Shown here one piece after another: positions 79 to 33,151 of a stretch of 33,813 nucleotides of DNA. The notes beneath the pieces are model-generated. The model saw only the letters and a program-made list of their open reading frames with translations, did no database searches and was not told where the DNA came from. The stretch comes from Bacteroidota bacterium. GTDB taxonomy: Bacteria > Bacteroidota > Bacteroidia > Flavobacteriales_D > Crocinitomicaceae. A program made the position numbers and the translations under genes. The DNA lies in contig SBGS01000229.1 in the NCBI GenBank assembly GCA_006226555.1, positions 1-33,813 on the forward strand. The letters are read 5' to 3'. Each line of letters starts with the position of its first letter. The first letter of the stretch is position 1.

Positions 79-110
79 AAAGAGTCTTGATTTTCAAGAC
101 TCTTTTTTTT
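79..110 (+). terminator. Intrinsic terminator after tRNA-His
   Basis: A 12-bp perfect stem (79-90 with 94-105), three-base loop, followed by T residues to 110. This is a classic rho-independent terminator for the tRNA. The stop codon of the leftward ASPIC/UnbV gene (109-111) lies at the edge of the T-run, so the hairpin could also act on leftward transcripts, but the T tract in that direction is only three bases. Confidence 0.9.
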
Positions 111-1731
111 ATCTCAAAATTTGAATTTGCTGATAACTGGAAATCTCGTAAACCTTCCCTCCCATCAGGTCCTTGAGCACGGTAATCTCCCCTCCAAGCC
201 AGTGTATGGTTAACTCTTCCAGGACATTGGCATCGTTCAATCCAAAATACAATATCCTAGTAGATTGTGATGCCTGTCCGCTCCCACCATCAACCTCCCG
301 CATCATAGATTTTCCTCCTTGCCTGAAGATCGCTTTACAACCAAAACAGTCCGCATTAAGGCCATCCGCTCCTCTTAATCTTATTCCGATCCAATTTCCT
401 ACCTTCATTTCATTCTGGTACAACTTGATCTTTTGATCGAGATTGGCAAAAGCTCCCCAAGGAAGCTTAACAACACTTGAAATAATATCCAGATCGCCAT
501 CATGATCGTAATCGAAGATCACCGCTCCACGATGTGACAACAGATCATTTACTCCTGATGAATCAGATGCATCAACAAATTCACCATTTCGGTTTTCAAA
601 TAAGACGTTCCAATCCTTGACAGAAGTTTTTGGGACCAGAGCAGCTACGTTTCCTTTAGATACATACAGATCAAGATCACCATCAAATTCCATATCGAAA
701 AACAAACCACTCCAGCTTGTTCCACGCACTGTATCTCTGACATACGTAAGATCAATTTCTAATTCCTTCGCAACATCGGTAAACTTCCCATTTTCGTAGT
801 TCATAAGGTAGTTCCTTCCAATGTTCGTGAGATAGTAATCCAGGTCAGCATCGTTATCATAATCGCCTTGACCAATACCCATTCCATACATTTTGATCCC
901 AAAACCGCTTTCTATGGTTTTATTCGTAAAACTCTCTTCGGGATAATTGTTTTCATAATACTGGTTGCCGATTCCGGTCCATTCTCCAAAGTCATTCAGC
1001 AGTAACAGATCCGGGTCTCCATCATTGTCAACATCAGTGAAACTAGCTGCGAGGCCACAACCACCATCATTTAAACCATATTTTGCTGCACATTCCGTAA
1101 ACCCTTTACCACCATTATTGAGTAAGAGCTTATTTTCGAAGCAAACCGGATCATAACCAATTTCTCTTCCATTGGAATCTCTGATCCCTCCCATCGAGGA
1201 AACATAATTTGCTAGGTAGATATCCGAAAAACCATCCATATTGAAATCTCCCCAACATGCAGAAGCATAATTCCCGGGTTCGATAACATCTGAAAGATCG
1301 ATGAGCTCGAAATACTCACCGCGAACATTACGCATAAGTGCAGGAGAGTGCTTATCACCACGACCGATACCTTTTCCGAAATTAACGATCATCATATCGA
1401 TAAAACCGTCGTTATCATAGTCGGCACTTATAGCTCCTTGAATGAAATAACCGTATAATGCATCCAATTTGTATTCTTCTGTTCCATCTACAAATTGTCC
1501 TTTTTGATTGATCCAGAGCTTAGAATTGAATACCCCTCCTGACTGAAAAACATCTTCCCATCCATCATTGTTCACGTCTATGACAAGAACACCTCCTCCT
1601 GCCATTTGAAATTCATTACCGGGATAGATATACGTTAGACCTTTTTCTTCACCTACCTCGATGAATTTGGTTTGCCCGAAAACGTAACACGACAGAAATA
1701 GCGTAATAAGAATCGAATAACTACTCTTCAT
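109..1731 (-). CDS. Secreted FG-GAP/VCBS beta-propeller protein with ASPIC/UnbV domain
   Basis: Exported beta-propeller protein of the CRTAC1/ASPIC-UnbV type. I start it at the ATG at 1731 because that gives a clean signal peptide (MKSSYSILITLFLSC..FGQ); an in-frame start at 1755 would add eight residues in front of it. Seven acidic calcium-binding loops of the FG-GAP/VCBS kind are visible (DVNNDGWED, DYDNDGFID, DFNMDGFSD, DVDNDGDPD, DYDNDADLD, DMEFDGDLD, DYDHDGDLD), consistent with a seven-bladed propeller. The last ~90 residues match the ASPIC/UnbV domain (REVDGGSGQASQS, FGLNDA, IHWLGG). It overlaps the upstream haloperoxidase gene by 11 bases, so the two are almost certainly co-transcribed and probably work together. 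Function is unknown; binding or presentation of a partner or surface ligand is an inference. Confidence 0.88.
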   Translation of the reverse strand: MKSSYSILITLFLSCYVFGQTKFIEVGEEKGLTYIYPGNEFQMAGGGVLVIDVNNDGWEDVFQSGGVFNSKLWINQKGQFVDGTEEYKLDALYGYFIQGAISADYDNDGFIDMMIVNFGKGIGRGDKHSPALMRNVRGEYFELIDLSDVIEPGNYASACWGDFNMDGFSDIYLANYVSSMGGIRDSNGREIGYDPVCFENKLLLNNGGKGFTECAAKYGLNDGGCGLAASFTDVDNDGDPDLLLLNDFGEWTGIGNQYYENNYPEESFTNKTIESGFGIKMYGMGIGQGDYDNDADLDYYLTNIGRNYLMNYENGKFTDVAKELEIDLTYVRDTVRGTSWSGLFFDMEFDGDLDLYVSKGNVAALVPKTSVKDWNVLFENRNGEFVDASDSSGVNDLLSHRGAVIFDYDHDGDLDIISSVVKLPWGAFANLDQKIKLYQNEMKVGNWIGIRLRGADGLNADCFGCKAIFRQGGKSMMREVDGGSGQASQSTRILYFGLNDANVLEELTIHWLGGEITVLKDLMGGKVYEISSYQQIQILR

Positions 1732-3037
1732 CGATACACACAAGTTTTTCAGCAACGAAGCGCCCTAAACGAGAACCATAGTCCATGCTGATGTCAAGGG
1801 TTTTTCTAAAGTGTATTCCACCATAAAAGCGAGACCAGGAGACTTCTTCCACTAATTCTGTAAAAGATGCGTAGGAACGAGGTGCTCCATTGATATCATC
1901 TCGATCTACATTGGTAGAATCTATGAAAGATACCTGATCTCCGAAAACTTGTTTAAATATCTCTCCTCCAGCTGCCGACTGGTAAGAATGTCCTGATGGA
2001 AATTCGGGAAAAGGAGGTGTGCTTAATCTCGTATTGAACTGAGGATCGATATAGCGCTGAATGTAAGTAATGGGACGAATGAAGCTGAACTTATACTTTA
2101 ATTGCCAGCTCGCAATATATGCCTCATTCATCGCTATTCCCAACTTAACATATAATTCGATCGCCTTCTTTAAATCCAGCTCTTTTTGTTCGCTTATCGT
2201 TCTTGCCAATGTATAGAAATGACCTGAGGGTGTACCCGAGTAACCCGGTGAATCATCCCAGTATTCCGCAATGATCTCGAATTTTGGATCCGAAAGTTTT
2301 GAATTTTCCAGAATACTATATGCATCCTTATAGAGTAACGAGTTCGTATCAGTAGAAAACGGAATCACTTCACAACCTGACATGGTTGCTTCACTTCCTT
2401 TCATCATCCAACGATTACTACCCCAATAAGGTAATAAAGATGGCAAATAGCCGGGAGTTGTTTTTACCCAACATTCAAGGCACTCCGGAGGGGTGTATTC
2501 ATCGGGGAAATTATAAATAAATCCTTCTTCTCCTCCATCAGTCTTTGACCATTCTATGATTTCATTTGCAATCCTCTTTCCTAAATCCAGTGATCTCTCA
2601 TTTACTTTTTTCGAAAAACCATCACCGTGTGAATCCTTTAATTCATTGAATAATTGTTGAAGATTTTTTTGGTTTCGCGGTGGCATGTTGCGATAAAGAT
2701 GACTCATCATTTCGTGATCGCAGGCTATGGCTACCAGAAACCTGTTGTATTTTTTTTTGTCCGCAAATACCGTTCTGCTGTAACCATTCATTTGACCTGA
2801 GAGCGACCTCATGTGATCCGTAAAATCGATCGTAGATTCGTAGATTCCAACGCTGAGATAAGCAAATGCTCTTCCGCTAACCGGCGGACTAAAACCAACA
2901 CAATGTTTTGTCAGCTCTATTGCCTCATCCAAATAACGATGATGGATTGCGAGAACTTTTTGATCGTCGCTTTCCTGAGCAATTCCGCTTATACTTATTA
3001 GAGCAAAAACCTGAAAAAATAATATGATCTTCCCCAC
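1721..3037 (-). CDS. Secreted vanadium-dependent haloperoxidase family protein
   Basis: 438-residue PAP2-superfamily protein with an N-terminal signal peptide (MGKIILFFQVFALISISGIAQ). The vanadate-binding signature of vanadium haloperoxidases is complete: K314-x6-R321-P322, P347-S-G-H350, and S402-R403-x5-H409, the last histidine being the expected axial ligand. These correspond in order and spacing to K353, R360, S402-G403-H404, R490 and H496 of fungal vanadium chloroperoxidase. Such enzymes use H2O2 to oxidise halides to hypohalous acid; bacterial acid phosphatases share the same pocket, so phosphatase activity cannot be excluded. Location should be periplasmic or outer surface. First gene of a leftward pair with the ASPIC/UnbV propeller gene. 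Halide preference cannot be read from sequence. Confidence 0.9.
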   Translation of the reverse strand: MGKIILFFQVFALISISGIAQESDDQKVLAIHHRYLDEAIELTKHCVGFSPPVSGRAFAYLSVGIYESTIDFTDHMRSLSGQMNGYSRTVFADKKKYNRFLVAIACDHEMMSHLYRNMPPRNQKNLQQLFNELKDSHGDGFSKKVNERSLDLGKRIANEIIEWSKTDGGEEGFIYNFPDEYTPPECLECWVKTTPGYLPSLLPYWGSNRWMMKGSEATMSGCEVIPFSTDTNSLLYKDAYSILENSKLSDPKFEIIAEYWDDSPGYSGTPSGHFYTLARTISEQKELDLKKAIELYVKLGIAMNEAYIASWQLKYKFSFIRPITYIQRYIDPQFNTRLSTPPFPEFPSGHSYQSAAGGEIFKQVFGDQVSFIDSTNVDRDDINGAPRSYASFTELVEEVSWSRFYGGIHFRKTLDISMDYGSRLGRFVAEKLVCIDEE

Positions 3038-3098
3038 TGAATGCCTTTTTCAAAAATTTGATAGTATCTAATAAAAGTATATTAATAATTCGAGTCTG

Positions 3099-3127
3099 TT
3101 CGTGCAAAAATCAAATTCTTACATTTG
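3099..3127 (+). promoter_or_regulatory. Bacteroidetes-type promoter for the FG-GAP/PQQ-like gene
   Basis: TTCG (3099-3102), 17-base spacer, then TACATTTG (3120-3127), matching the -33 TTTG / -7 TAnnTTTG consensus of Bacteroidetes sigma factors with one change in the -33 box. It covers the TTG at 3125, which argues that translation begins at the ATG at 3143 rather than at that TTG. Confidence 0.6.
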
Positions 3128-3142
3128 CCAAAACACCTGCAC

Positions 3143-4591
3143 ATGATGAAAATCACACGAAATTTCGCGATCCTGTACATGATCTCATCTTCTGTATTAA
3201 GTTTCGCTCAGCGTGAATCGTGGAAAATTCAGATAGATTCAGCCAATATATTCTCTTCTCCCAGGTTTACTGATCTGAACTCTGACGGGGTGAAGGATAT
3301 TGTTCTTGGAGGTGGTGTCGAAGCTATTCCAACACCAAATGGAATAATAGCGATTGATGGAAAAACCGGACAAATGCTCTGGAATTTCCCAACTCCTACA
3401 CAAACATATACGAGCGCAATGTTCCAAGACATTACCGGAGATAAAATTGATGATGTCTTTATTGGTGGAAGAGCAGGTTCATTCTTTGCGATTAACGGCA
3501 ATACAGGTGAGCTTATATGGGAGTTTTTCTCAAAGGACCAAGGAGACCCACGAACAAAAGGTATCCTGAATTTTTATGCTACTCAGTGGATCGATGATCA
3601 GGATAAAGATGGATACAAGGATCTACTTGTGTCAAATGGCGGAGATTATCTTGCAAAACCTGAGGACAAGGAGCGTGGAGGATCGATCCTGATGGTCATA
3701 AGCTCCAAATCAGGAAAGACTATTAAGACTATCCCATTACCTGAAAAACGTGAAACATACTATGCCCCACATATCGTAAATCATCAGCAGGAAACATATG
3801 TTGTATTCGGAAGTGGAGGGGAAACAATTGACGGTGGATTATGGAAAGTAAGATTGTCTGAGGTGTTAAATGGTAAAATGAAAAATGCCGTTGAGATCAC
3901 CCACGATTCAGAGAAGGGTTTCATCCTTAACTCGTTGAGTGCAGATATCAACAAGGATGAAGTTCCGGACATATTAAATGCACGCATGAATGGCACTTTA
4001 AGTGCTTTCGACGGTCAAACCAATCGTGTTCTTTGGGAGCACAACTTCCCTGGCTATGAATGTTATGTCACTCCTTCTTTCGGTCATTTCAATGAGGATG
4101 GTGTACCCGATTTTTTTACCATTATTTCAAAGGGAACATTCCCGATTTATCAGGAATGGCGATTAATCGCAGTTGATGGTGCAAGCGGAAAAATAATTAT
4201 GGATGAAGTATCCGGTTTTAATCAATTTTCTCCGGCTGTATGTGCAGACCTCAATAACGACAAGATCGACGAGATCATTTTTGTTGAGAATGCGCTACTT
4301 GATCCCTCCACTTTCCTCATGATAAATCAAGTAAAAGTTATCGATATCCGATCCAATAAAAACTATTATATCGGTCCAGTTAGGACAGGAATCTCTATGG
4401 CTTCAACACCCTCATTGGAAGACCTGAACAATGATGGTAAATTTGAACTTGTATTGGCCGTGACGACGATGGAATCCGAAAATGAGATGCCTACTAGTAT
4501 CGTCCAATGTATAGATCTTGAACAAAGTATAGAACAACTTACATGGCCTGTTTATCTTGGCCCTAATGAGAATGGTTCATTGGAAAAATAG
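3143..4591 (+). CDS. Secreted FG-GAP / PQQ-like beta-propeller protein
   Basis: About 482 residues with a signal peptide (NFAILYMISSSVLSFAQ). Start placed at the ATG at 3143, with another ATG at 3146; an upstream in-frame TTG at 3125 lies inside the promoter box. The chain alternates two kinds of motif. Calcium-loop repeats: DLNSDGVKD, DITGDKIDD, DQDKDGYKD, DINKDEVPD, HFNEDGVPD, DLNNDKIDE, DLNNDGKFE. PQQ-like blade ends: IDGKTGQMLWNF, INGNTGELIWEF, FDGQTNRVLWEH. Seven repeats fit a seven-bladed propeller. No catalytic residues are recognised. It is divergent from the haloperoxidase pair and 5 bases upstream of a BamA/TamA-like gene, suggesting a surface or periplasmic complex. Ligand unknown. 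Confidence 0.85.
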   Translation: MMKITRNFAILYMISSSVLSFAQRESWKIQIDSANIFSSPRFTDLNSDGVKDIVLGGGVEAIPTPNGIIAIDGKTGQMLWNFPTPTQTYTSAMFQDITGDKIDDVFIGGRAGSFFAINGNTGELIWEFFSKDQGDPRTKGILNFYATQWIDDQDKDGYKDLLVSNGGDYLAKPEDKERGGSILMVISSKSGKTIKTIPLPEKRETYYAPHIVNHQQETYVVFGSGGETIDGGLWKVRLSEVLNGKMKNAVEITHDSEKGFILNSLSADINKDEVPDILNARMNGTLSAFDGQTNRVLWEHNFPGYECYVTPSFGHFNEDGVPDFFTIISKGTFPIYQEWRLIAVDGASGKIIMDEVSGFNQFSPAVCADLNNDKIDEIIFVENALLDPSTFLMINQVKVIDIRSNKNYYIGPVRTGISMASTPSLEDLNNDGKFELVLAVTTMESENEMPTSIVQCIDLEQSIEQLTWPVYLGPNENGSLEK

Positions 4592-4596
4592 GTGCC

Positions 4597-5655
4597 TTGA
4601 AAGTTTTAATCTTCATTATTCTAATTAGCTCGAGTTGGGCTGTTATAGGTCAGCAGGACACATCTTCTCACAAAAAGATTAAGATACTGCCCGTTCCCGC
4701 ATTTGGATATTCCCCTGAAACCAAAACATATATTGGTGCAGTAGCATTATTCACTATAGACATCTTCAACGACAGTCTCACAAGAACCTCAAATGCTAAG
4801 ATCGAGTTCAACTATACCTGGAGAAAACAGATCATTTCTGAGATCCAATGGAACTATTTCACGAAACATGAAAAGTGGTTTACACAGGGGTTATTGCATT
4901 ACTCTAAATACCCGGATTATTACTACGGAATTGGTGAAAACACTGCTGATACAGCTGAAATTTTATATCAAAGTGACAGATTGAAGATCGACCTGAACCT
5001 CCTTCGTTCAATAAGACGTAATGTATTTATCGGTCTTGGTCTAAGGCATTTTCAGTACACAGCCATTCAGTCAGACTCGTCACTTCTTTCTTTCCCTGAA
5101 TTAAGCAGTCAAAAAAATTATGGGTTGAGCACAATTTTTCTGAATGATCATCGGAACAACATATTAACACCTGACCATGGTCATTATTTAAAAATACAAT
5201 TCGAGTTCAACCTCTCATCCAGCAATTACTCGCGCACCACCCTAGATCTCAGAAAGTACTTTTCCTGGGGAACGAAGCTTCCCCAAGTATTATCAGCTCG
5301 CCTATATTCCAGTCATGTATCACCCGGTGCACCATTTTACGATATTGCATTGTTAGGTGGAGATGCATTTGTGCGCGGATACTTTTATGGGCGCTTTCGA
5401 ACAAACAACCTCACTACTTTACAATCCGAATTGAGAACGGATCTATTCTGGCGAATAGGTTTATCTGTTTTTGGGGGTTACTCCATGATTTACAGAAACT
5501 TAGATAATCTTACTTCAACAAATTTCAAACCCAATGCTGGCGTAGGATTGCGCTTTTTGGTAGACAAAAATGAACGGACCAATTTAAGATTTGATTACGC
5601 TATTGGACAAGACGGACAAAACGGATTCTACATTAGCTTTGGTGAATCCTTTTAA
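4597..5655 (+). CDS. BamA/TamA-family outer membrane beta-barrel protein
   Basis: 352 residues: signal peptide (KVLIFIILISSSWAVIGQ) followed directly by a barrel of the D15/Omp85 type with no room for POTRA domains. LGGDAFVRGYFYGRF matches the conserved loop-6 VRGF/Y motif of Omp85 proteins, and the chain ends in an aromatic beta-strand (FYISFGESF). The start appears to be TTG at 4597: an in-frame stop lies at 4567-4569, and no ATG or GTG occurs in frame before the signal peptide. The gene begins 5 bases after the FG-GAP/PQQ-like gene and is likely co-transcribed. The role may be export or anchoring of a neighbour rather than general barrel assembly, which the short length makes unlikely. Confidence 0.85.
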   Translation: MKVLIFIILISSSWAVIGQQDTSSHKKIKILPVPAFGYSPETKTYIGAVALFTIDIFNDSLTRTSNAKIEFNYTWRKQIISEIQWNYFTKHEKWFTQGLLHYSKYPDYYYGIGENTADTAEILYQSDRLKIDLNLLRSIRRNVFIGLGLRHFQYTAIQSDSSLLSFPELSSQKNYGLSTIFLNDHRNNILTPDHGHYLKIQFEFNLSSSNYSRTTLDLRKYFSWGTKLPQVLSARLYSSHVSPGAPFYDIALLGGDAFVRGYFYGRFRTNNLTTLQSELRTDLFWRIGLSVFGGYSMIYRNLDNLTSTNFKPNAGVGLRFLVDKNERTNLRFDYAIGQDGQNGFYISFGESF

Positions 5656-8950: not shown

Positions 8951-9366
8951 ATATCAATGCTTATTGTTCTACTTCCATCCTGATTTACACGAATATACGA
9001 CCAAATCACGTTATCAGGAAGGAGTTCGGAAATTTTTTCAGGCCATTCGATAAAACACATACCGTCACCATAAAGCATTTCCTCAATTCCAATATCGTAT
9101 GCTTCCTCTTCGCTTTCTATTCTATACAGATCAAAATGATAGATCTTACCGTACATCGGGCTTTCATAGCTGTTAACCAGTGAATAAGTTGGAGAACCAT
9201 CGGGGTCTTCAATGCCCATGCAATTCAATAGCGCCTGAATAAAAGTGGTTTTGCCACTACCCATCTCTGCCTGAAAAGCAAATAATTTCCAATGTCCTAC
9301 CTTTTCAAGAAACTCTTTCGCAGCTTCATGAATATCATCAAGTTGTTGAATCTGAATCGTTATCAT
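8947..9366 (-). CDS. tsaE: tRNA threonylcarbamoyladenosine biosynthesis ATPase TsaE
   Basis: 139 residues, normal for TsaE/YjeE, the ATPase that works with TsaB and TsaD to make the universal t6A37 modification of ANN-decoding tRNAs. Walker A is EMGSGKTT (34-41). The family motifs SPTYSLVN, IYHFDLYR and CFIEWPEK follow in order. It overlaps porX upstream by 4 bases and ald downstream by 4 bases, so expression is translationally coupled within the operon. Confidence 0.95.
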   Translation of the reverse strand: MITIQIQQLDDIHEAAKEFLEKVGHWKLFAFQAEMGSGKTTFIQALLNCMGIEDPDGSPTYSLVNSYESPMYGKIYHFDLYRIESEEEAYDIGIEEMLYGDGMCFIEWPEKISELLPDNVIWSYIRVNQDGSRTISIDI

Positions 9367-10907
9367 CTCGGATCTAGCTCAACATAAGGAATCAGCAGCT
9401 CTTCAAGTGAAATCCCGCCATGCTGAAAGGTATTACTGTAATAATTGACGAAGTGATTGTAATTGTTTGGATAAACAAAGAAATCAGCTGCACTCACAAA
9501 AACGAATTCAGAAGACAACCTGGTTTTCGGCAGTTTGGCATCCTCCGGGTTTGATACCCTGAAAACTTCTTTTTCGTTGTACGAAAGATTATGTCCAACC
9601 TTGTACCTCAGGTTTGAATTCGTTGATCTTTCTCCAATGATCTTTACGGGATTTGTAACGCGGATCGTGCCGTGATCAGTGGTAATCACCAATTTTCTAC
9701 CTGATTCTGCTACCTTTTTTATGATTTCGAACAAAGGCGAATGATCGAACCATGAACGCGTAATTGATCTGTATGCTGATTCGTTTTCTGCCAATTCACG
9801 GATGACCTCCATCTCAGTTCTCGCATGAGAGAGCATGTCCACGAAATTGTACACGATCACGTTCAATTTATTCGACAATAACTGATTGAAATTGTCCGAC
9901 AACTTCTTCCCTGCATCTATGTTTGTGATCTTGTGATAAGACCATTTTATATCGTGACCAAGTCTTTTTAATTGTGCTTCGAGCAATTCCTTTTCAAATT
10001 GATTCTTACCTCCTTCATCCTCTTCGTTTCTCCAAAGATTTGGATGTTTTTTTGCTATATCAGAAGGCATCAATCCTGCAAAAAAAGCATTGCGGGCATA
10101 ATGTGTCGCTGTTGGAAGAATAGAATAAACTACCTCCTCGTTTTTGATCTGGAAAAGTTTACTCAGCATTGGGTTTAATACCTTCCATTGATCATACCTC
10201 AAATTGTCTATTACGATCACAAAAGGATCATGCTCCTTAAGCAATGGACTGATTCGATTTTTAAAAAGTGTATGAATCATTTGAGGGGCCTCTACTTTGC
10301 CATTTACCCAATCCAAATACGCATCCTCAACAAATTTGCTAAACTGAATATTCGCCTCCTTCTTCTGCATTTCAAGAATTTCACGCATCCCGGAATCCTC
10401 AATTCGATCGAGCTCAATATCCCAATAGACAAGCTTCTCGTACACTTCTTTCCATTCATCCTCATCTAACCTTGAATTCAGCATCATTCCTAATTCACGA
10501 AACTCCTGCTGATATGCAGAATTGGTTTTGTTCGTGATCAATTTACTGTGATCAAGATTTTTCTTAATGCAAAGCAATATTTGATTAGGATTTACAGGTT
10601 TAATGAGGTAATCAGCGATATTACTTCCGATCGCTTCCTCCATGATATGCTCCTCCTCACTCTTCGTGATCATTACCACCGGAATGTGCGGCTTTCGCTT
10701 TTTAATGCGCGCCAAGGCTTCCAATCCTGAAATACCAGGCATATTTTCATCCAGAAAAATAATATCGTAATCGCGTTCTTCCACTCGCTCAACCGCCGCC
10801 GAACCATTATTTACCGGATCTACTGAATATCCTTTTCCTTCCAGAAACAGTATATGTGGTTTCAATAGATCAATTTCGTCATCTGCCCAAAGTATTTTCG
10901 CCTCCAT
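9363..10907 (-). CDS. porX: PorX-type response regulator with PglZ (alkaline phosphatase-like) domain
   Basis: About 514 residues from the ATG at 10907, which gives the usual receiver-domain start MEAKILWADDE; an in-frame start at 10955 would add a non-conserved leader. Receiver domain ~1-120 with acidic pair D9-D10 and phospho-acceptor D53 (IIFLDENMPG), plus the conserved lysine in LIKPVNP. A linker is followed by a PglZ/alkaline-phosphatase-superfamily domain with metal-site motifs IVIDNLRYDQW, THYARNAFF, NFVDMLSH, TTDHGT and QHGGIS. In Porphyromonas and Flavobacterium, PorX with sensor PorY controls T9SS genes, and its PglZ domain is a zinc phosphodiesterase. No porY is in this window. First gene of the porX-tsaE-ald-HsdR_N operon. 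Confidence 0.93.
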   Translation of the reverse strand: MEAKILWADDEIDLLKPHILFLEGKGYSVDPVNNGSAAVERVEERDYDIIFLDENMPGISGLEALARIKKRKPHIPVVMITKSEEEHIMEEAIGSNIADYLIKPVNPNQILLCIKKNLDHSKLITNKTNSAYQQEFRELGMMLNSRLDEDEWKEVYEKLVYWDIELDRIEDSGMREILEMQKKEANIQFSKFVEDAYLDWVNGKVEAPQMIHTLFKNRISPLLKEHDPFVIVIDNLRYDQWKVLNPMLSKLFQIKNEEVVYSILPTATHYARNAFFAGLMPSDIAKKHPNLWRNEEDEGGKNQFEKELLEAQLKRLGHDIKWSYHKITNIDAGKKLSDNFNQLLSNKLNVIVYNFVDMLSHARTEMEVIRELAENESAYRSITRSWFDHSPLFEIIKKVAESGRKLVITTDHGTIRVTNPVKIIGERSTNSNLRYKVGHNLSYNEKEVFRVSNPEDAKLPKTRLSSEFVFVSAADFFVYPNNYNHFVNYYSNTFQHGGISLEELLIPYVELDPR

Positions 10908-10929
10908 CTTGGTATAATTCTTAGTTTTG
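10897..10929 (+). promoter_or_regulatory. Promoter for HD phosphohydrolase gene, inside and upstream of the porX start
   Basis: TTCG (10897-10900), 21-base spacer, TAGTTTTG (10922-10929), matching Bacteroidetes -33/-7 elements. The -33 box lies inside the first codons of porX on the other strand. Confidence 0.5.
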
Positions 10930-10949
10930 TAGCGGAAAAACCGCGTCCC

Positions 10950-12230
10950 TTGCAATCAAAGGTAAAGATTAACAATAAAAAGAAGATATTTAACGATCCG
11001 GTATACGGATTTATTTCAATTCCCAAGGAAGTAATCTTTGATGTAATTGAACATCCATATTTTCAGCGTCTAAGAAGGATCAAGCAATTAGGTTTAACCC
11101 ACAATGTTTACCCGGGAGCCTTGCATACACGTTTTCATCATGTTCTGGGTGCAATGCATCTCATGACGAAAGCGGTACAAACCATCAGACGCAAAGGTCA
11201 TGAAATAACCGACAAGGAAGAAGAAGCCGTTTTATTGGCCATCCTTCTTCACGACATTGGTCATGGACCGTTCTCACACGCGTTGGAATATGATATAGTT
11301 TCCGGTGTATCCCATGAAGAGATTTCCCGCTTCTTCATTGAACGTTTAAGCGAAGAATTAGAAGGTGAACTTGATCTCGCACTGGAGGTTTTCAAAGGAA
11401 CCTATCCGAAGAAATTCTTGCATCAGCTGGTTTCGAGCCAATTGGATATGGATAGAATGGACTATCTGAACAGAGACAGCTTCTACACTGGTGTAAGCGA
11501 AGGGGTGATCGGTAGCGACCGCATTATTGAAATGTTAAATGTGGTCGATGGAAATTTGGTACTTGAAGAAAAAGGGATCTACTCCATTGAAAAGTTCATT
11601 GTCGCCAGACGTTTGATGTATTGGCAGGTGTACCTGCATAAAACTGTAGTTGCTACGGAATACATGTTGATCCATGTTTTGAGAAGAGCAAAAGAGCTTT
11701 CCACTAACGGACATGATCTTTTTGCTAGCCCTGCTCTGAACTTTTTCCTTAAAAACAACATCACCAAGGAAGACTTTATTTCCAACAAAAACGTACTTGA
11801 GCAGTTTGCAAGACTTGATGACTATGATATTCTTGGAGCCGTGAAAGTATGGATGGATTATCCAGACAGAGTGTTGAGCGAGCTGTCGAAAAGAATCATC
11901 AACAGAGATCTCTTTAAGATCAAGATTTCTAAAGAGCCTTTTGATCTAAAAGATGTTGAGGCAATCCGTGTTCGCGTAATGCAAGACTTCGATCTTTCGG
12001 AAAATGAAGTGAAATACTTTGTGTACTCAGATAAACTTTCAAATTCTGCCTACACCGAGCATAAGGAAAACATCAATCTCATGATGAAAGATGGCAGCAC
12101 TGTTGATGTGAGTAAAGCATCTGATAATCTGAATATCTCTGCACTATCGAATCCGGTGGAAAAGTACTTTGTGTGTTACCCCGTTACACGCTCCAAAAAA
12201 GCTAAACAGCTAACATTCAAGCACCAGTAG
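10950..12230 (+). CDS. HD-domain phosphohydrolase (SAMHD1/dGTPase-like)
   Basis: 426 residues of the COG1078-type HD superfamily, related to dNTP triphosphohydrolases. The metal-binding HD set is visible: H63/H64 in HTRFHHVLG, H101-D102 in LLHDIGHGPFSH, and aspartates 166/168 in LDMDRMDYLNRD. PVYGFISIP and HPYFQRLRRIKQLGL are typical N-terminal motifs. Likely cytoplasmic; substrate (dNTP or other nucleotide) not proven. The start appears to be TTG at 10950, since no in-frame ATG precedes the conserved region. A small hairpin (GCGG/CCGC, 10932-10944) sits just upstream of it. Divergent from porX, convergent with the next gene with one base between stops. Confidence 0.88.
   Translation: MQSKVKINNKKKIFNDPVYGFISIPKEVIFDVIEHPYFQRLRRIKQLGLTHNVYPGALHTRFHHVLGAMHLMTKAVQTIRRKGHEITDKEEEAVLLAILLHDIGHGPFSHALEYDIVSGVSHEEISRFFIERLSEELEGELDLALEVFKGTYPKKFLHQLVSSQLDMDRMDYLNRDSFYTGVSEGVIGSDRIIEMLNVVDGNLVLEEKGIYSIEKFIVARRLMYWQVYLHKTVVATEYMLIHVLRRAKELSTNGHDLFASPALNFFLKNNITKEDFISNKNVLEQFARLDDYDILGAVKVWMDYPDRVLSELSKRIINRDLFKIKISKEPFDLKDVEAIRVRVMQDFDLSENEVKYFVYSDKLSNSAYTEHKENINLMMKDGSTVDVSKASDNLNISALSNPVEKYFVCYPVTRSKKAKQLTFKHQ
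10957..10964 (-). promoter_or_regulatory. Possible -7 box for porX (minus strand TACCTTTG)
   Basis: Read on the minus strand the bases spell TACCTTTG, a perfect TAnnTTTG, about 50 bases upstream of the porX ATG and inside the first codons of the HD gene. No convincing -33 box was found, so this is tentative. Confidence 0.35.
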
Positions 12231-20059: not shown

Positions 20060-23000
20060 ATGAAAAATTTATTACTATCAGCGCTCTTAATCGTGAGTGC
20101 ACAAGCATTGGCACAATCTGATGGCTGTTCTTCGGCAACGCTTCTTAGCGTAACAGCAAACTGTTCCTCCCCTGTATCAGGTACAACTCTTGGTGCTACT
20201 CAAACTATTGCAGGTTGTTCAGGTAATGCCGATGATGATGTATGGTATCAATTCACTGCAACCAATACAGCACATCAGATCACAGTGATTCCAATTGCAG
20301 GTTTTGATCCGGTCGTTCAATTGTTCTCCGGAACATGCTCTTCTCTGACCTCACTGGTTTGTAAAGACAATGGAGGATCCGGTGTTACTGAAATCATCAA
20401 CTACAATGGTCTAACGCCCGGGAATACTTACACAGTAAGAATTTATCATTATGGTGCAGGATCAGGTACTGGAAATTTCACAATTTGCGTTACGAATCCA
20501 CCCCCGACACCGTCAAACGATGAATGTATCAGTGCTACACCATTAAATGTTAACGGCTCTTGTAGCTATACCAATGCTACCACTGATGGTGCTTCTCAAT
20601 CTTTAACCGGATGTTCAGGAACAGCAGATGACGATGTTTGGTTCAGTTTTGTAGCTACAAATTCTTTACAAAACATCCAGGTTAATCCAATTGACGCTAT
20701 CGACCTGGTATTTCAGGTATACTCTGGTTCATGTGGAGCTTTAAACAGCTTGATCTGCATTGATAACACGTTCACAGGAGATGTTGAGCAATCCGATATC
20801 GTTGGACTTGTTCCAGGTCAGACATATTACATTCGTGTTTACGATTACTATCAAGGTAACACAGGTGATTTTCAAATATGCATCACGGGAACGCCCACAC
20901 CTACACCAACCAATGATGATCCTTGTTCGGCGATAGAACTTCCTGCTGTTACAGCAACTTGTCAATTCTCACAATTCACAACTGTAGGTGCTTCAGCAAC
21001 CATGAGTGCTCCTACCCCATCAACTTGTGCTGGAGGTAGTGGTGCAGCGATAGGAGGTTTTTCTGCTTCCTCATCTGATGTTTGGTTTGCCATAACGGTA
21101 CCTGCCAGTGGTAATGTTGATGTTACAGCTCAACCGAATGGTGGCGCAGGATCGATCACAGATGGAGTTATGGCACTCTATAGTGGTACATGTTCCAGCT
21201 TGACTCAGATTGCCTGCTCGGATGATAATAATTATCCCGGATCAACAAATGATCTATTACCATTCTTATCCGTAAACGGACTCACTCCGGGATCAACTGT
21301 CTACCTTAGATACTGGGGATTTGGTAGTTCGACAGGGACATTTGGTATTTGTGTTTCGACGGCAACGAACGATGATTGTGCAAATGCCTTGTATATATGT
21401 GACATTAATGGTTACAGCGCTTCTACAAGTGCCTCTTACACACCTGATCGTCCGGACAATATGCGCGGAAACAACGAGGACATCAACGGAAATAACCTGG
21501 TTGATGGGTTTGACTCAGGAGGGATCTTCGGACAAGCAGGACCATGGGGAACCGGGTCGGCTGATTTTGATGTTGTGATCGATAATAACAGCTGGATCAA
21601 ATTCACTGCTTCAAATACAACTGCTACCTTGGATGTAGATGTTTATGACTGCTGGACAGGAAACGGAATACAAATGCAGATCTTTGAAGGAACGAACTGT
21701 ACAAACTTTATCCCGGTTTCAAATTTTGAAGAAAGTGCGATCGGATTTACAATTACAGCGATAAATCTGACTATTGGAAATGACTATTATCTCATGGTAG
21801 ATGGGTTTGCAGGTGATATTTGTAATTATACGATAACGGCGAATTCAGGTGTTCAGTTTCCTGACATCGCTGACGTAAATCCTATTTGCGAAGGAGGAAC
21901 GGTAACCTTGAATGCACCTCCGGGAGCAACTTCCTACGAGTGGCAGCATGATGGATCTGCAACTCCTAGTGTTACGGTTTCACCATCTACAACGCAAACA
22001 TATTACTGTGAAGTAACTGGTTTATGTGATTACAAGCAGATGCTGGATGTTGTTGTTACAGTAAACCCAAATCCAAATGTGAGTATTACAAATGGTGCTA
22101 CAACATCAATTTGTCAGGGAGCTAGTGCTACACTGACCGCTACCGGAGCAACAAATTACACATGGTCAACAGGTGGTTCAGGAGCATCGATCAATGTTTC
22201 TCCGACCACAAATACGCAATATACTGTAACAGGGATTGATGCGAATGGTTGTTCTAATAATGATGTGATCACGGTGCAAGTAAATTCTCTTCCAACGTTA
22301 GCGGCTAATCCGAATGCTACGGATGCTGATTGCGGTGGATCAAATGGAGCACTTATCGGTGCAACTGCATCAGGAAATGGACCTTTCAGCTATTCATGGT
22401 CAAATGGAACTTCAACTATCGGGTCAACCGCCAACCTTAACAATGTTCCTGCGGGAAATTATTATTTGACTGTAACCGATGCCAACACATGTAATGACCA
22501 ATTCGGACCGTTCAATATCTCAAACCCAGGAGCTCCTCCTGCGCCATCACTTACGATCGATGATAATGATCCTTGTCTTGGTGCATCAAGTGTTTTAACT
22601 GCATCCAGCGCTGCGAGCTCTCCGGTATATAATTGGACCGGTCCTAACGGATTCACTGCTACCGGCACTACTGTTAACTTAACAAATGTGACTTCCCTTG
22701 AAAGCGGTAATTACTGTGTTTCTGTTACATCCGCTGGTTGTACTGGTCCATCTTCCTGCCAGACGATCACAGTACTAAACGATCCTCTGATCGCAGTAAC
22801 AGCTGCCGGGAATGATTCTACAATATGTTTATTCAATGACATTAACCTAAGTGTTACCGGTGCTGATTCATACACCTGGACTGGTCCAAACAGTTATAGC
22901 GGCTCAGGTTCGACCATCAATATCCCTAATGCTCAACAAGCAAACAGTGGTTACTATGCTGTAACGGGAATTGATGCCAACGGCTGTTCTGCTACTGATT

Positions 23001-23800
23001 CCATTTTAATATCAGTACTGCAGCTTCCTGTTGTTGATCTCGCTGCAGATCATGCCAATAATATCTATTGTAATGGCTATATAGCCAATTTAACTGCCAG
23101 TGGAGCTATGTCATATACCTGGACAGGACCATCAGGATTCACTTCCTCCAATAGTTCCGTAACCTTGATCAATCTGGATGCCGGAGATCAAGGATACTAT
23201 TATGTTACAGGTACAGATTCAGAAGGATGTGCTAACTCAGATAGTATTTTCTTGACGATTATTACCAATGTTCCGGCGTTTGCTCCTTCTGACACAATGA
23301 TCTGTCCGGGAGAAACACTGATTCTTTATGGTTCAGGAGGTCAGACGTACAATTGGAATGGACCTGCGGGGTATTATTCTGAGCTTCAGAATCCAACTGT
23401 TACGACCGATGCTTCATTTGAAAACTCAGGAATTTACTACCTGACAGTTACCGATGCCAATGGATGCCTGGGATATGACTCTACACTTGTTGAAGTAACA
23501 AACAATGGAGACTGCCTATTTATTCCAAACCTTACAACTCCTGATAAGGATGGCCACAATGACCTATGGGTAATTGAAGGACTTGATAAATTTGAAAATG
23601 CCGAGGTCGAGATCTATAACAGATGGGGAAATATGGTTTATTATTCCTCTCCCTATAACAATGATTGGGATGGTACTGTAAATCAGCCGGGAGTAATAGA
23701 CGGTGAAGGAAAGGTTCCTGTTGGTACATACTTCTATATTATCAAGCTTAATGAAGGCGATAAACCACCATTTAAGGGATATGTTGAAGTCCAATACTAA
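20060..23800 (+). CDS. Large T9SS type B surface protein (PPC-like, Ig-like, SprB repeat, CHU_C)
   Basis: 1246 residues. Signal peptide to about residue 19. Four Cys-containing PPC-like beta-sandwich modules start near 20, 151, 283 and 434, three of them with NDxC.SA or DGCSSA heads. About seven Ig/PKD-like modules of 75-85 residues run from ~597 to ~1150, several sharing TWTGP...GF and a DANGC or similar ending. The module at ~743-830 (DADCGGSNGALIG, AGNYYLTVTDANTC) resembles a SprB repeat. The end (~1150-1246: LFIPNLTTPDKDGHNDLW, IYNRWGNMVY, VPVGTYFYII) is the gliding-motility-associated CHU_C domain, a type B T9SS sorting signal. Expected: secretion by T9SS and display on the surface or release. 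Adhesin-like; ligand unknown. The SprF-like protein it probably needs is encoded next. Confidence 0.93.
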   Translation: MKNLLLSALLIVSAQALAQSDGCSSATLLSVTANCSSPVSGTTLGATQTIAGCSGNADDDVWYQFTATNTAHQITVIPIAGFDPVVQLFSGTCSSLTSLVCKDNGGSGVTEIINYNGLTPGNTYTVRIYHYGAGSGTGNFTICVTNPPPTPSNDECISATPLNVNGSCSYTNATTDGASQSLTGCSGTADDDVWFSFVATNSLQNIQVNPIDAIDLVFQVYSGSCGALNSLICIDNTFTGDVEQSDIVGLVPGQTYYIRVYDYYQGNTGDFQICITGTPTPTPTNDDPCSAIELPAVTATCQFSQFTTVGASATMSAPTPSTCAGGSGAAIGGFSASSSDVWFAITVPASGNVDVTAQPNGGAGSITDGVMALYSGTCSSLTQIACSDDNNYPGSTNDLLPFLSVNGLTPGSTVYLRYWGFGSSTGTFGICVSTATNDDCANALYICDINGYSASTSASYTPDRPDNMRGNNEDINGNNLVDGFDSGGIFGQAGPWGTGSADFDVVIDNNSWIKFTASNTTATLDVDVYDCWTGNGIQMQIFEGTNCTNFIPVSNFEESAIGFTITAINLTIGNDYYLMVDGFAGDICNYTITANSGVQFPDIADVNPICEGGTVTLNAPPGATSYEWQHDGSATPSVTVSPSTTQTYYCEVTGLCDYKQMLDVVVTVNPNPNVSITNGATTSICQGASATLTATGATNYTWSTGGSGASINVSPTTNTQYTVTGIDANGCSNNDVITVQVNSLPTLAANPNATDADCGGSNGALIGATASGNGPFSYSWSNGTSTIGSTANLNNVPAGNYYLTVTDANTCNDQFGPFNISNPGAPPAPSLTIDDNDPCLGASSVLTASSAASSPVYNWTGPNGFTATGTTVNLTNVTSLESGNYCVSVTSAGCTGPSSCQTITVLNDPLIAVTAAGNDSTICLFNDINLSVTGADSYTWTGPNSYSGSGSTINIPNAQQANSGYYAVTGIDANGCSATDSILISVLQLPVVDLAADHANNIYCNGYIANLTASGAMSYTWTGPSGFTSSNSSVTLINLDAGDQGYYYVTGTDSEGCANSDSIFLTIITNVPAFAPSDTMICPGETLILYGSGGQTYNWNGPAGYYSELQNPTVTTDASFENSGIYYLTVTDANGCLGYDSTLVEVTNNGDCLFIPNLTTPDKDGHNDLWVIEGLDKFENAEVEIYNRWGNMVYYSSPYNNDWDGTVNQPGVIDGEGKVPVGTYFYIIKLNEGDKPPFKGYVEVQY
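21851..23510 (+). repeat. Tandem Ig-like/SprB-type module region within the surface protein
   Basis: About seven diverged in-frame modules of roughly 220-260 bases. Recurrent protein signatures are TWTGP near the middle and TGIDANGCS or TVTDANGC at the end. At DNA level the copies are only loosely similar, so the array is old rather than a fresh slippage product. Confidence 0.7.
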
Positions 23801-23807
23801 TGACAGC

Positions 23808-24719
23808 ATGAGAAAGATAATATTTATAACAGCATTATTTATTTCTGCCTTTGCTCAATCCCAACAGGATGAACAAATGAGCTTGTATATGCAGAATCAG
23901 TTGTACTACAACCCGGCATACGCAGGAAGTAGAAATGCTCTGAGCACCATTGCTATCGCAAGATTTCAATGGGTTCAATTTGACGGCGCCCCTACTACCC
24001 AATGGTTCAGTGTGCATGCGCCTTTTCTACAACAAACACTTGGTGCAGGCATACATGCCGTAAATGATCGCATTGGTAACAGAAGTAGAACCGCAATATT
24101 TGGAGATCTTAGTGCTAGTATTCAGCTGAATAAGCAAAACACCCGACTCGCAGCAGGATTATCCGGAGGAATCGATGTTATTGGATATGACTTCAGTTCA
24201 GTTAAGGTGAATGATCAAAATGATCCCTATTATGGTTCACTCTACAGTGTAACTAAACCAAACATGGGAGCAGGTCTCTATTGTTATTCTGATCGTTTCT
24301 TTGTGGGTCTATCCAGTCCACGTTTATTTGAAATGGAAGATGTTCTTTTAGATTCATTGATAGACAAATTAAATACAAGACACTTTTTCTTCTCATCTGG
24401 ATATGTTTTCGATTTGAATAGTGTATTTAAATTAAAGCCATCAGCATTACTGAAATATACTCCAAAGGCTCCATTAACAGTTGATTTTAACCTTAGTATG
24501 TTAATGTATGATCAAATCTGGGTGGGTCTACTTTACCGTTACAACGAAGCAATGGGAGCTAATGTAATTTACAACATAAAGCAAACGCTGAGTATCGGAT
24601 ACACCTATGATTTCCCAATCAATGGTTTACGCACTTATCAATATGGATCACATGAAGTATTCCTGAGATATGACTTTATGCCAAAGAAAACGAACTATAC
24701 TTCTCCTCGCTATTTCTGA
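23808..24719 (+). CDS. PorP/SprF-family outer membrane protein
   Basis: About 304 residues from the ATG at 23808 (MRKIIFITALFISAFAQSQQ signal peptide); a longer reading from 23703 would run back into the surface-protein gene. The conserved PorP/SprF start DEQMSLYMQNQLYYNPAYAG is present, then a beta-barrel pattern to the end. SprF of Flavobacterium johnsoniae is needed for secretion or attachment of the type B protein SprB encoded beside it. By analogy this protein should serve the 1246-residue protein 7 bases upstream. Confidence 0.93.
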   Translation: MRKIIFITALFISAFAQSQQDEQMSLYMQNQLYYNPAYAGSRNALSTIAIARFQWVQFDGAPTTQWFSVHAPFLQQTLGAGIHAVNDRIGNRSRTAIFGDLSASIQLNKQNTRLAAGLSGGIDVIGYDFSSVKVNDQNDPYYGSLYSVTKPNMGAGLYCYSDRFFVGLSSPRLFEMEDVLLDSLIDKLNTRHFFFSSGYVFDLNSVFKLKPSALLKYTPKAPLTVDFNLSMLMYDQIWVGLLYRYNEAMGANVIYNIKQTLSIGYTYDFPINGLRTYQYGSHEVFLRYDFMPKKTNYTSPRYF

Positions 24720-32392: not shown

Positions 32393-33151
32393 TCAACGCG
32401 TAAATACCCATTCACTATCCGTAGATAGGTTCGCATCAAAACGATATCCTTCACGATCGAAACCTTTGATCTCTTCAGGATCGGTCAAACCACTGGAAAG
32501 AATATAGTTGGCCATCATGCCTCTCGCCTGTTTAGCGTAGACCATTACTACCTGATATTTTCCGTTCTTGAACTCCTTAAAAACAGGCGTGATCAGCTTC
32601 GCTTTTAATTTCTTATTTGGAATGGCTTTAAAATATTCTGTTGAAGCCAGGTTCACGATCAGCTCACTCTCTTCTTTATTCAACTCATCTACGATCTTGT
32701 CTCCCCAGAAAGCATATAGGTTTTTCTTAGTCGGTGTTACCGCCCAGCTAGTACCCATTTCCAATCGATACGGATGAATCAGATCCAATGGTTTCAGTAT
32801 TCCATATAACCCTGAGAGAATTCGTAGCTCATCTTGTGCCCTCCTGAGTGTAGACTCATCAAATTGTGTTGCATTCAATCCTCGATAAACTTCACCATTA
32901 AAAACGGCTCCAGCGTATACTCCCCCGTCTTTATCAGAGGAAATGGGCTTCCATGCAGCATACCGATCAACATTTAACTCGGCAAGATCAGTAGATAAAT
33001 GCATGAGATCAGCGATCTTTTTTACGGAGAATTTTCTGAGCTTTGAGACAAGAGATTCAGCTTCGTTTTGAAAAACAGGAATAGAATACTCCTTAGTACT
33101 GAATGTTTTTGAACTATCGATGTTTTTTGCAGGTGACAATAGAATCTTCAT
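32393..33151 (-). CDS. yaaA: Peroxide stress protein YaaA (UPF0246)
   Basis: 252 residues, full length. Family signatures: MKILLSPAKNID at the start, LRILSGLYGILKPLDLIHPYRLEMG in the middle (split as ILSGLYGILKPLD and PYRLEMGT), and YAKQARG near the end. In E. coli YaaA lowers intracellular free iron and DNA damage under H2O2 stress. It starts 9 bases after the stop of the SLC13-type transporter on the same strand, so they may share a transcript. Confidence 0.95.
   Translation of the reverse strand: MKILLSPAKNIDSSKTFSTKEYSIPVFQNEAESLVSKLRKFSVKKIADLMHLSTDLAELNVDRYAAWKPISSDKDGGVYAGAVFNGEVYRGLNATQFDESTLRRAQDELRILSGLYGILKPLDLIHPYRLEMGTSWAVTPTKKNLYAFWGDKIVDELNKEESELIVNLASTEYFKAIPNKKLKAKLITPVFKEFKNGKYQVVMVYAKQARGMMANYILSSGLTDPEEIKGFDREGYRFDANLSTDSEWVFTR

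Follow-up and report, generated by a model that had tools for sequence, protein, structure and literature searches.

A vanadium haloperoxidase gene paired with a CRTAC1-type propeller gene in Bacteroidota

Described relatives and the two genes of the pair

Many marine bacteria have vanadium haloperoxidases, enzymes of importance for the cycling of iodine and bromine and for biocatalysis. To our knowledge, those of bacteria have been studied as lone enzymes, and the best-studied iodoperoxidase among them is VIPO1 of Zobellia galactanivorans. The ASPIC domain of the second protein considered here is also present in human CRTAC1. Homology to Zobellia VIPO is named in an earlier study (PMC5064120), where PDB 4usz is the Zobellia iodoperoxidase; 4usz and 4cit have one sequence in common. 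A Zobellia paralogue, vIPO3, is induced on a brown alga (PMC9296495), and a CRTAC1-family gene lies beside hydrazine-synthase-like genes in an unrelated setting (PMC12758564). In searches of the open-access literature (in one of them, among the best 12 of 48 matches), we found no account of a haloperoxidase paired with ASPIC/UnbV, CRTAC1, SusD or FG-GAP/VCBS proteins.

The window, by which we mean the whole analysed stretch of 33,813 nucleotides from a Crocinitomicaceae genome, opens with four genes whose coordinates and strands the initial annotation had given exactly. The haloperoxidase gene (1721-3037, minus strand) encodes a VIPO-like protein of 438 aa with a Sec signal. Its best solved relative is 4cit (residues 35-435, E 3.9e-50; the next has E 3e-5), and its vanadate site is complete, as first annotated: K314, R321, S348, G349, H350, R403 and H409 map one to one onto the 4cit ligands and are invariant in an alignment of 21 relatives. 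The protein shares with VIPO1 full-length homology, these seven residues, F353 and, in most rows of the alignment, W321 (F in the others). Unlike VIPO1, it falls in a separate clade with a support of 100, in which the equivalent of Y263 is G in all 19 members and that of D322 is R, K, Q or another residue. Because the second-sphere set of VIPO1-type iodoperoxidases (Y263, W321, D322, F353) is thus not matched at Y263 and D322, the halide preference of VIPO1 cannot be transferred to this clade. The enzyme of this marine bacterium probably oxidises halides such as iodide, to judge from its sequence, and a preference for iodide is a guess. A further difference from VIPO1 is a CxxCW motif (2470-2482, minus strand; C186 and C189), found in every one of the 19 clade members and in 7 other haloperoxidases, which probably forms a disulfide. 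A YaaA-like peroxide stress protein is encoded on the same contig as this peroxide-using enzyme (32393-33151).

The protein could alternatively be a phosphatase of the PAP2 superfamily, with the propeller binding a phosphorylated polymer. Vanadate and phosphate sites resemble each other in this superfamily, and PAP2 is the top Pfam family of the protein, at 25.6 bits (just below the cut-off of 27.2). However, Pfam also detects part of the second helical domain of vanadium chloroperoxidases (VCPO_2nd), the match to 4cit is full-length, and the same type of partner adjoins a gene 99% identical to 4cit (see below). We consider a phosphatase improbable, although it is the strongest of the alternatives to a haloperoxidase acting with a propeller partner.

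The partner gene (109-1755, minus strand) encodes a CRTAC1-type protein with a seven-bladed FG-GAP propeller followed by a UnbV/ASPIC domain, as indicated by Pfam (FG-GAP_3, E 4e-27; UnbV_ASPIC, 37.7 bits for a cut-off of 23.4) and by the predicted fold. Its frame begins at a TTG, and an ATG at codon 9 (position 1731) yields a normal signal sequence. The latter is probably the real start, in which case the protein has 540 aa and the overlap with the haloperoxidase gene, already noticed in the initial annotation, would be 11 bases instead of 35. Sequence searches alone found no solved relative of this protein. Its AlphaFold2 model is all-beta (pLDDT 85.5), and Foldseek matches it to murine CRTAC1 (PDB 9etn) with E 1.6e-27 and TM scores of 0.74/0.73, the second match having E 3.6e-8. 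The predicted fold is that of CRTAC1, with the same order of propeller and UnbV_ASPIC domain. Unlike the murine protein, the one in the window is bacterial, lacks an EGF-like domain and is encoded by a gene that overlaps a haloperoxidase gene.

Distribution of the pair

We searched 240 genomes of the family for close relatives of the haloperoxidase and then inspected their neighbourhoods; this search was used in place of a scan of genome contigs with the single protein, which gave just two relatives. The resulting clade has 19 loci, counting the window and 18 relatives, and a support of 100 (SH-aLRT). In all 19, an ASPIC gene lies immediately downstream of the haloperoxidase gene on the same strand; the genes overlap by 4-16 bases in 16 relatives and abut in two. 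The ASPIC partners also form a single clade (17 usable rows, support 100). The pair is therefore a fixed unit in this clade. A scan of viral contigs gave one distant match only, and hence no link to phages.

Through weak matches in the 240-genome search we came upon a strongly diverged haloperoxidase of about 1290 aa, which retains K, R, SGH, R and H in its catalytic part. In 17 of 17 loci the next gene, which in most cases overlaps it by 4 bases, encodes an ASPIC protein of about 800 aa; Pfam confirmed UnbV_ASPIC in the partners tested. Members of both families carry sorting tails (NCBIfam) of the type IX secretion system (T9SS). An eighteenth pair (L175, the others being L133-L147, L151 and L152) was met while inspecting ASPIC genes. 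These tailed pairs constitute a second form of the pair, apparently undescribed, and three genomes (G150, G126, G089) contain one form as well as the other, with a separate partner for each. Haloperoxidase relatives of about 650-700 aa without an ASPIC partner (L148, L149, L150) branch as sisters of the T9SS form.

Outside the family, we identified 60 VIPO-like genes by protein search alone, blind to their neighbours. Of these, 25 have a directly adjacent ASPIC gene in the same orientation (19 upstream, 3 downstream and 3 on both sides); two others have one within three genes, 31 have none, and two are at contig edges. Lipobox-like signals are present on 18 of the 23 long ASPIC partners of this set. 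Some of these loci adjoin SusD genes, an arrangement known from polysaccharide-utilisation loci that we confirmed in two cases. One locus (L106, 4979-9644) bears directly on the described enzyme: its CHARACTERISED enzyme is 99% identical to 4cit over 389 columns of the tree alignment, the sequence of 4cit being taken from its alignment with the window haloperoxidase. This gene starts 8 bases downstream of an ASPIC gene of 1101 aa, itself preceded by a second ASPIC-like frame. Given this identity, the ASPIC gene of L106 adjoins the gene of an enzyme identical, or all but identical, to the proven iodoperoxidase. The arrangement differs from that of the window, where the partner is downstream and much shorter (540 aa against about 1100). 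The 4cit-like gene is followed by one for a GyrI-like domain protein.

Other haloperoxidases have other neighbours. In the two annotated regions inspected, haloperoxidases on plasmids have no ASPIC gene annotated next to them, and one of the plasmid enzymes, on a plasmid of Adhaeribacter swui (L153), lies near genes for a chloride channel, a CrcB fluoride exporter and PAP2 phosphatases. In a different haloperoxidase clade (L057, L059, L063, L064, L065, L077, L091), the haloperoxidase gene is immediately followed by a gene of about 115-130 aa; two of the products were tested, and both lack a Pfam match and look lipoprotein-like. In L097, the region downstream of the haloperoxidase gene (3430-5076) shows a weak HmuY match and encodes a PaaA/PaaC-like protein.

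We then compared the linkage with chance expectation. In 23 genomes with 81 ASPIC genes (PF07593 count), an ASPIC gene lies no more than 6 kb from 26 of the 31 haloperoxidases, where 0.34 would be expected. These genomes were chosen as haloperoxidase carriers, partly after some neighbourhoods were known, so that the 25 of 60 above is the fairer figure; it is also far beyond chance. In six genomes the sole ASPIC gene detected is the neighbour of the haloperoxidase, and they include that of the window, which is 89% complete. The presence of an ASPIC neighbour requires 7 changes on the haloperoxidase tree, and linkage requires about 11 on the ASPIC tree, showing that the pair has formed or broken up several times. 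Since 31 of the 60 haloperoxidases stand without an adjacent ASPIC gene and many ASPIC genes stand apart from any haloperoxidase, neither protein generally requires the other. No fusion of a haloperoxidase gene with an ASPIC gene came to light in the loci inspected. In summary, the association first seen in the window is real and beyond chance; the pair extends more broadly, across the phylum, than the initial annotation had it, and the four genes do not form a fixed unit.

Location and possible role of the pair

All four proteins of the locus have a Sec-type hydrophobic N-terminal segment, read from the sequence without a signal-peptide program, in line with the export signals assigned to them originally. 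None of the four has a T9SS sorting tail. In the clade, a simple lipobox-like pattern, which is not a predictor, matches two of the 19 haloperoxidases and one of the 17 ASPIC partners. The cell-surface location initially proposed thus finds no support for the window's clade: its signals make the periplasm, or release by some route, more likely than anchored display on the surface. T9SS tails or lipoprotein signals are present on sister forms elsewhere, and the T9SS form of the pair is probably at the surface or secreted. Elsewhere in the window (20060-24719), a gene for a T9SS type B cargo protein overlaps a gene of the PorP/SprF family.

The two genes are linked at every locus of both the window's clade (19 of 19) and the independent T9SS clade (17 of 17), in 25 of 60 cases elsewhere and at the 4cit-like gene. 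This linkage argues for a partnership, in which the ASPIC propeller is, from these gene neighbourhoods, probably a working partner of the haloperoxidase. A fuller account, which we hold to be about evenly balanced between right and wrong, is that the two act together outside the cytoplasm. They would be made as a coupled pair and exported by Sec. With vanadate and hydrogen peroxide, the enzyme would oxidise a halide, most likely iodide and possibly bromide. The propeller would hold the enzyme or its substrate, or present the substrate, and would thereby direct the short-lived oxidised halogen to its target, be it a polymer, an incoming toxin or a signal molecule. The exported oxidation unit of the initial annotation is thereby retained for the haloperoxidase and its ASPIC partner, which co-occur strictly in very diverse genomes; it extends in part to the second propeller and weakly to the barrel (see below).

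Two other roles for the ASPIC protein seem to us about equally unlikely. It could be the substrate, with the haloperoxidase iodinating or cross-linking tyrosines in the propeller, or in a matrix to which the propeller belongs, and so hardening an extracellular layer. In favour, each enzyme has one dedicated partner, often translationally coupled, and the T9SS-tailed pairs would come together at the cell surface. Yet the tyrosine content of ASPIC proteins is not high (4.7% in the window type, 5.4% in the T9SS type, 4.4% in unlinked ones), and the comparison of linked with unlinked proteins gave no support to a tyrosine-rich substrate. Alternatively, the ASPIC protein could be a maturation factor that folds or protects the haloperoxidase or loads vanadate into it, which would fit the overlapping genes, the near-strict linkage in the window's clade and the periplasmic signals on both proteins. 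The 31 VIPO-like relatives without an adjacent ASPIC gene argue against such a need, as does Zobellia VIPO1, which Fournier and colleagues in 2014 reportedly produced in active form in E. coli with no partner present.

Joint action of enzyme and propeller would have consequences beyond this clade. A conserved partner, found even beside a near-identical VIPO1 gene, would explain the destination of the oxidised halogen, and the pair would give a testable role to bacterial ASPIC/CRTAC1 proteins. The hydrazine-synthase neighbourhood is a possible parallel: a CRTAC1-family FG-GAP protein is encoded there too next to a secreted redox enzyme, although the enzyme is unrelated and the organisms are different. 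It is conceivable, as a more speculative proposal, that haloperoxidase and CRTAC1-type protein constitute a general two-protein system of extracellular halogenation in Bacteroidota, assembled more than once, and that secreted oxidising enzymes have repeatedly taken CRTAC1-family proteins as partners. If true, this would be a first working hypothesis for the original role of the ASPIC domain, which human CRTAC1 also has.

The second propeller and the Omp85 barrel

Divergent from the pair, and separated from it by a short shared intergenic region (3038-3124), is the gene of a second FG-GAP propeller (3125-4591, plus strand; Pfam FG-GAP/beta-propeller, PQQ-like). Its real start is probably the ATG at 3143 or 3146. 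A match to TANNTTTG at 3120-3127 (plus strand) would fit a flavobacterial promoter; since the window has no more of these matches than expected by chance, we rejected it as promoter evidence. The seven repeats first annotated correspond to seven DxDxDG-like calcium loops, a number also present in the ASPIC protein. The model is all-beta (pLDDT about 86) and its best match is BamB (E 8.7e-11, TM 0.47/0.61, 11% identity). It shares with BamB, as with other PQQ-like and FG-GAP propellers, the type of fold only, and nothing points to a function in BAM. We also rejected a PQQ-enzyme function, the propeller matches being generic.

Orthologues of this propeller (at least 48% identity, about 487 aa) occur in 11 of the 240 genomes, namely in 10 of the 19 with the haloperoxidase and in 1 of the 221 others (hypergeometric p 7e-12, uncorrected for kinship). 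The gene adjoins the pair in the window, L007, L037-L040, L044 and L046, in divergent and convergent orders, and lies one gene further away, next to the barrel gene, in L048. Its presence in 10 of 19 haloperoxidase genomes is best read as that of an optional accessory gene, whose product might serve in binding. Most other propeller-positive genomes have longer paralogues of about 950 aa (L128:4158-7016 and many family genomes); the one checked has SprB repeats and a T9SS tail.

The fourth gene (4597-5655, plus strand) encodes an Omp85-superfamily barrel of 352 aa and is the member with the weakest linkage. Its only Pfam match, above the cut-off like that of the second propeller, is PF01103 (61.5 bits), which spans residues 91-352, up to the last residue, and the Omp85 loop motif VRGY is present. 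Conserved sequence begins about 8 residues after the signal. The match leaves no room for POTRA domains, in agreement with the initial description. The protein is of the 'noNterm' type of Omp85 (PMC4104836), barrels without an N-terminal extension, and we found no haloperoxidase link in that source's account of the subfamily. Orthologues (at least 45% identity) were found in 12 of 240 genomes, including 8 of the 19 with the haloperoxidase (p 1e-7).

The initial annotation had all four genes working as one, with the barrel as exporter or anchor. An obligate locus of this kind is the least likely of the alternatives: the haloperoxidase is indeed present in 10 of the 11 propeller genomes and the barrel gene is next to a unit gene in three configurations (in the window; after ASPIC in L044; after the propeller in L048 and L126; the latter two with 4-base overlaps), but among the 19 haloperoxidase genomes the propeller is missing from 9 and the barrel from 11. 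The barrel is unlinked to the unit in G124, G150, G007 and G151 and occurs without the second propeller or a close haloperoxidase in G143, G133 and G039. Judged by co-occurrence in relatives, the check proposed in the initial annotation, haloperoxidase and ASPIC pass, the propeller passes halfway and the barrel barely. Nothing in the analysis supports an exporter role. We rejected the barrel as a core member, whole-genome searches showing it often unlinked and also present without the rest; it would be a hitch-hiker or an optional outer-membrane neighbour, outside the core of the haloperoxidase and its ASPIC partner. The barrel also adjoins a unit gene in L127. In G150 (L124) it lies beside HD, PglZ, TsaE and alanine-dehydrogenase-like genes, the same block that follows it in the window. 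There, a response-regulator receiver is fused to the PglZ domain (9363-10955) beside TsaE, in the part shared with the G150 barrel region.
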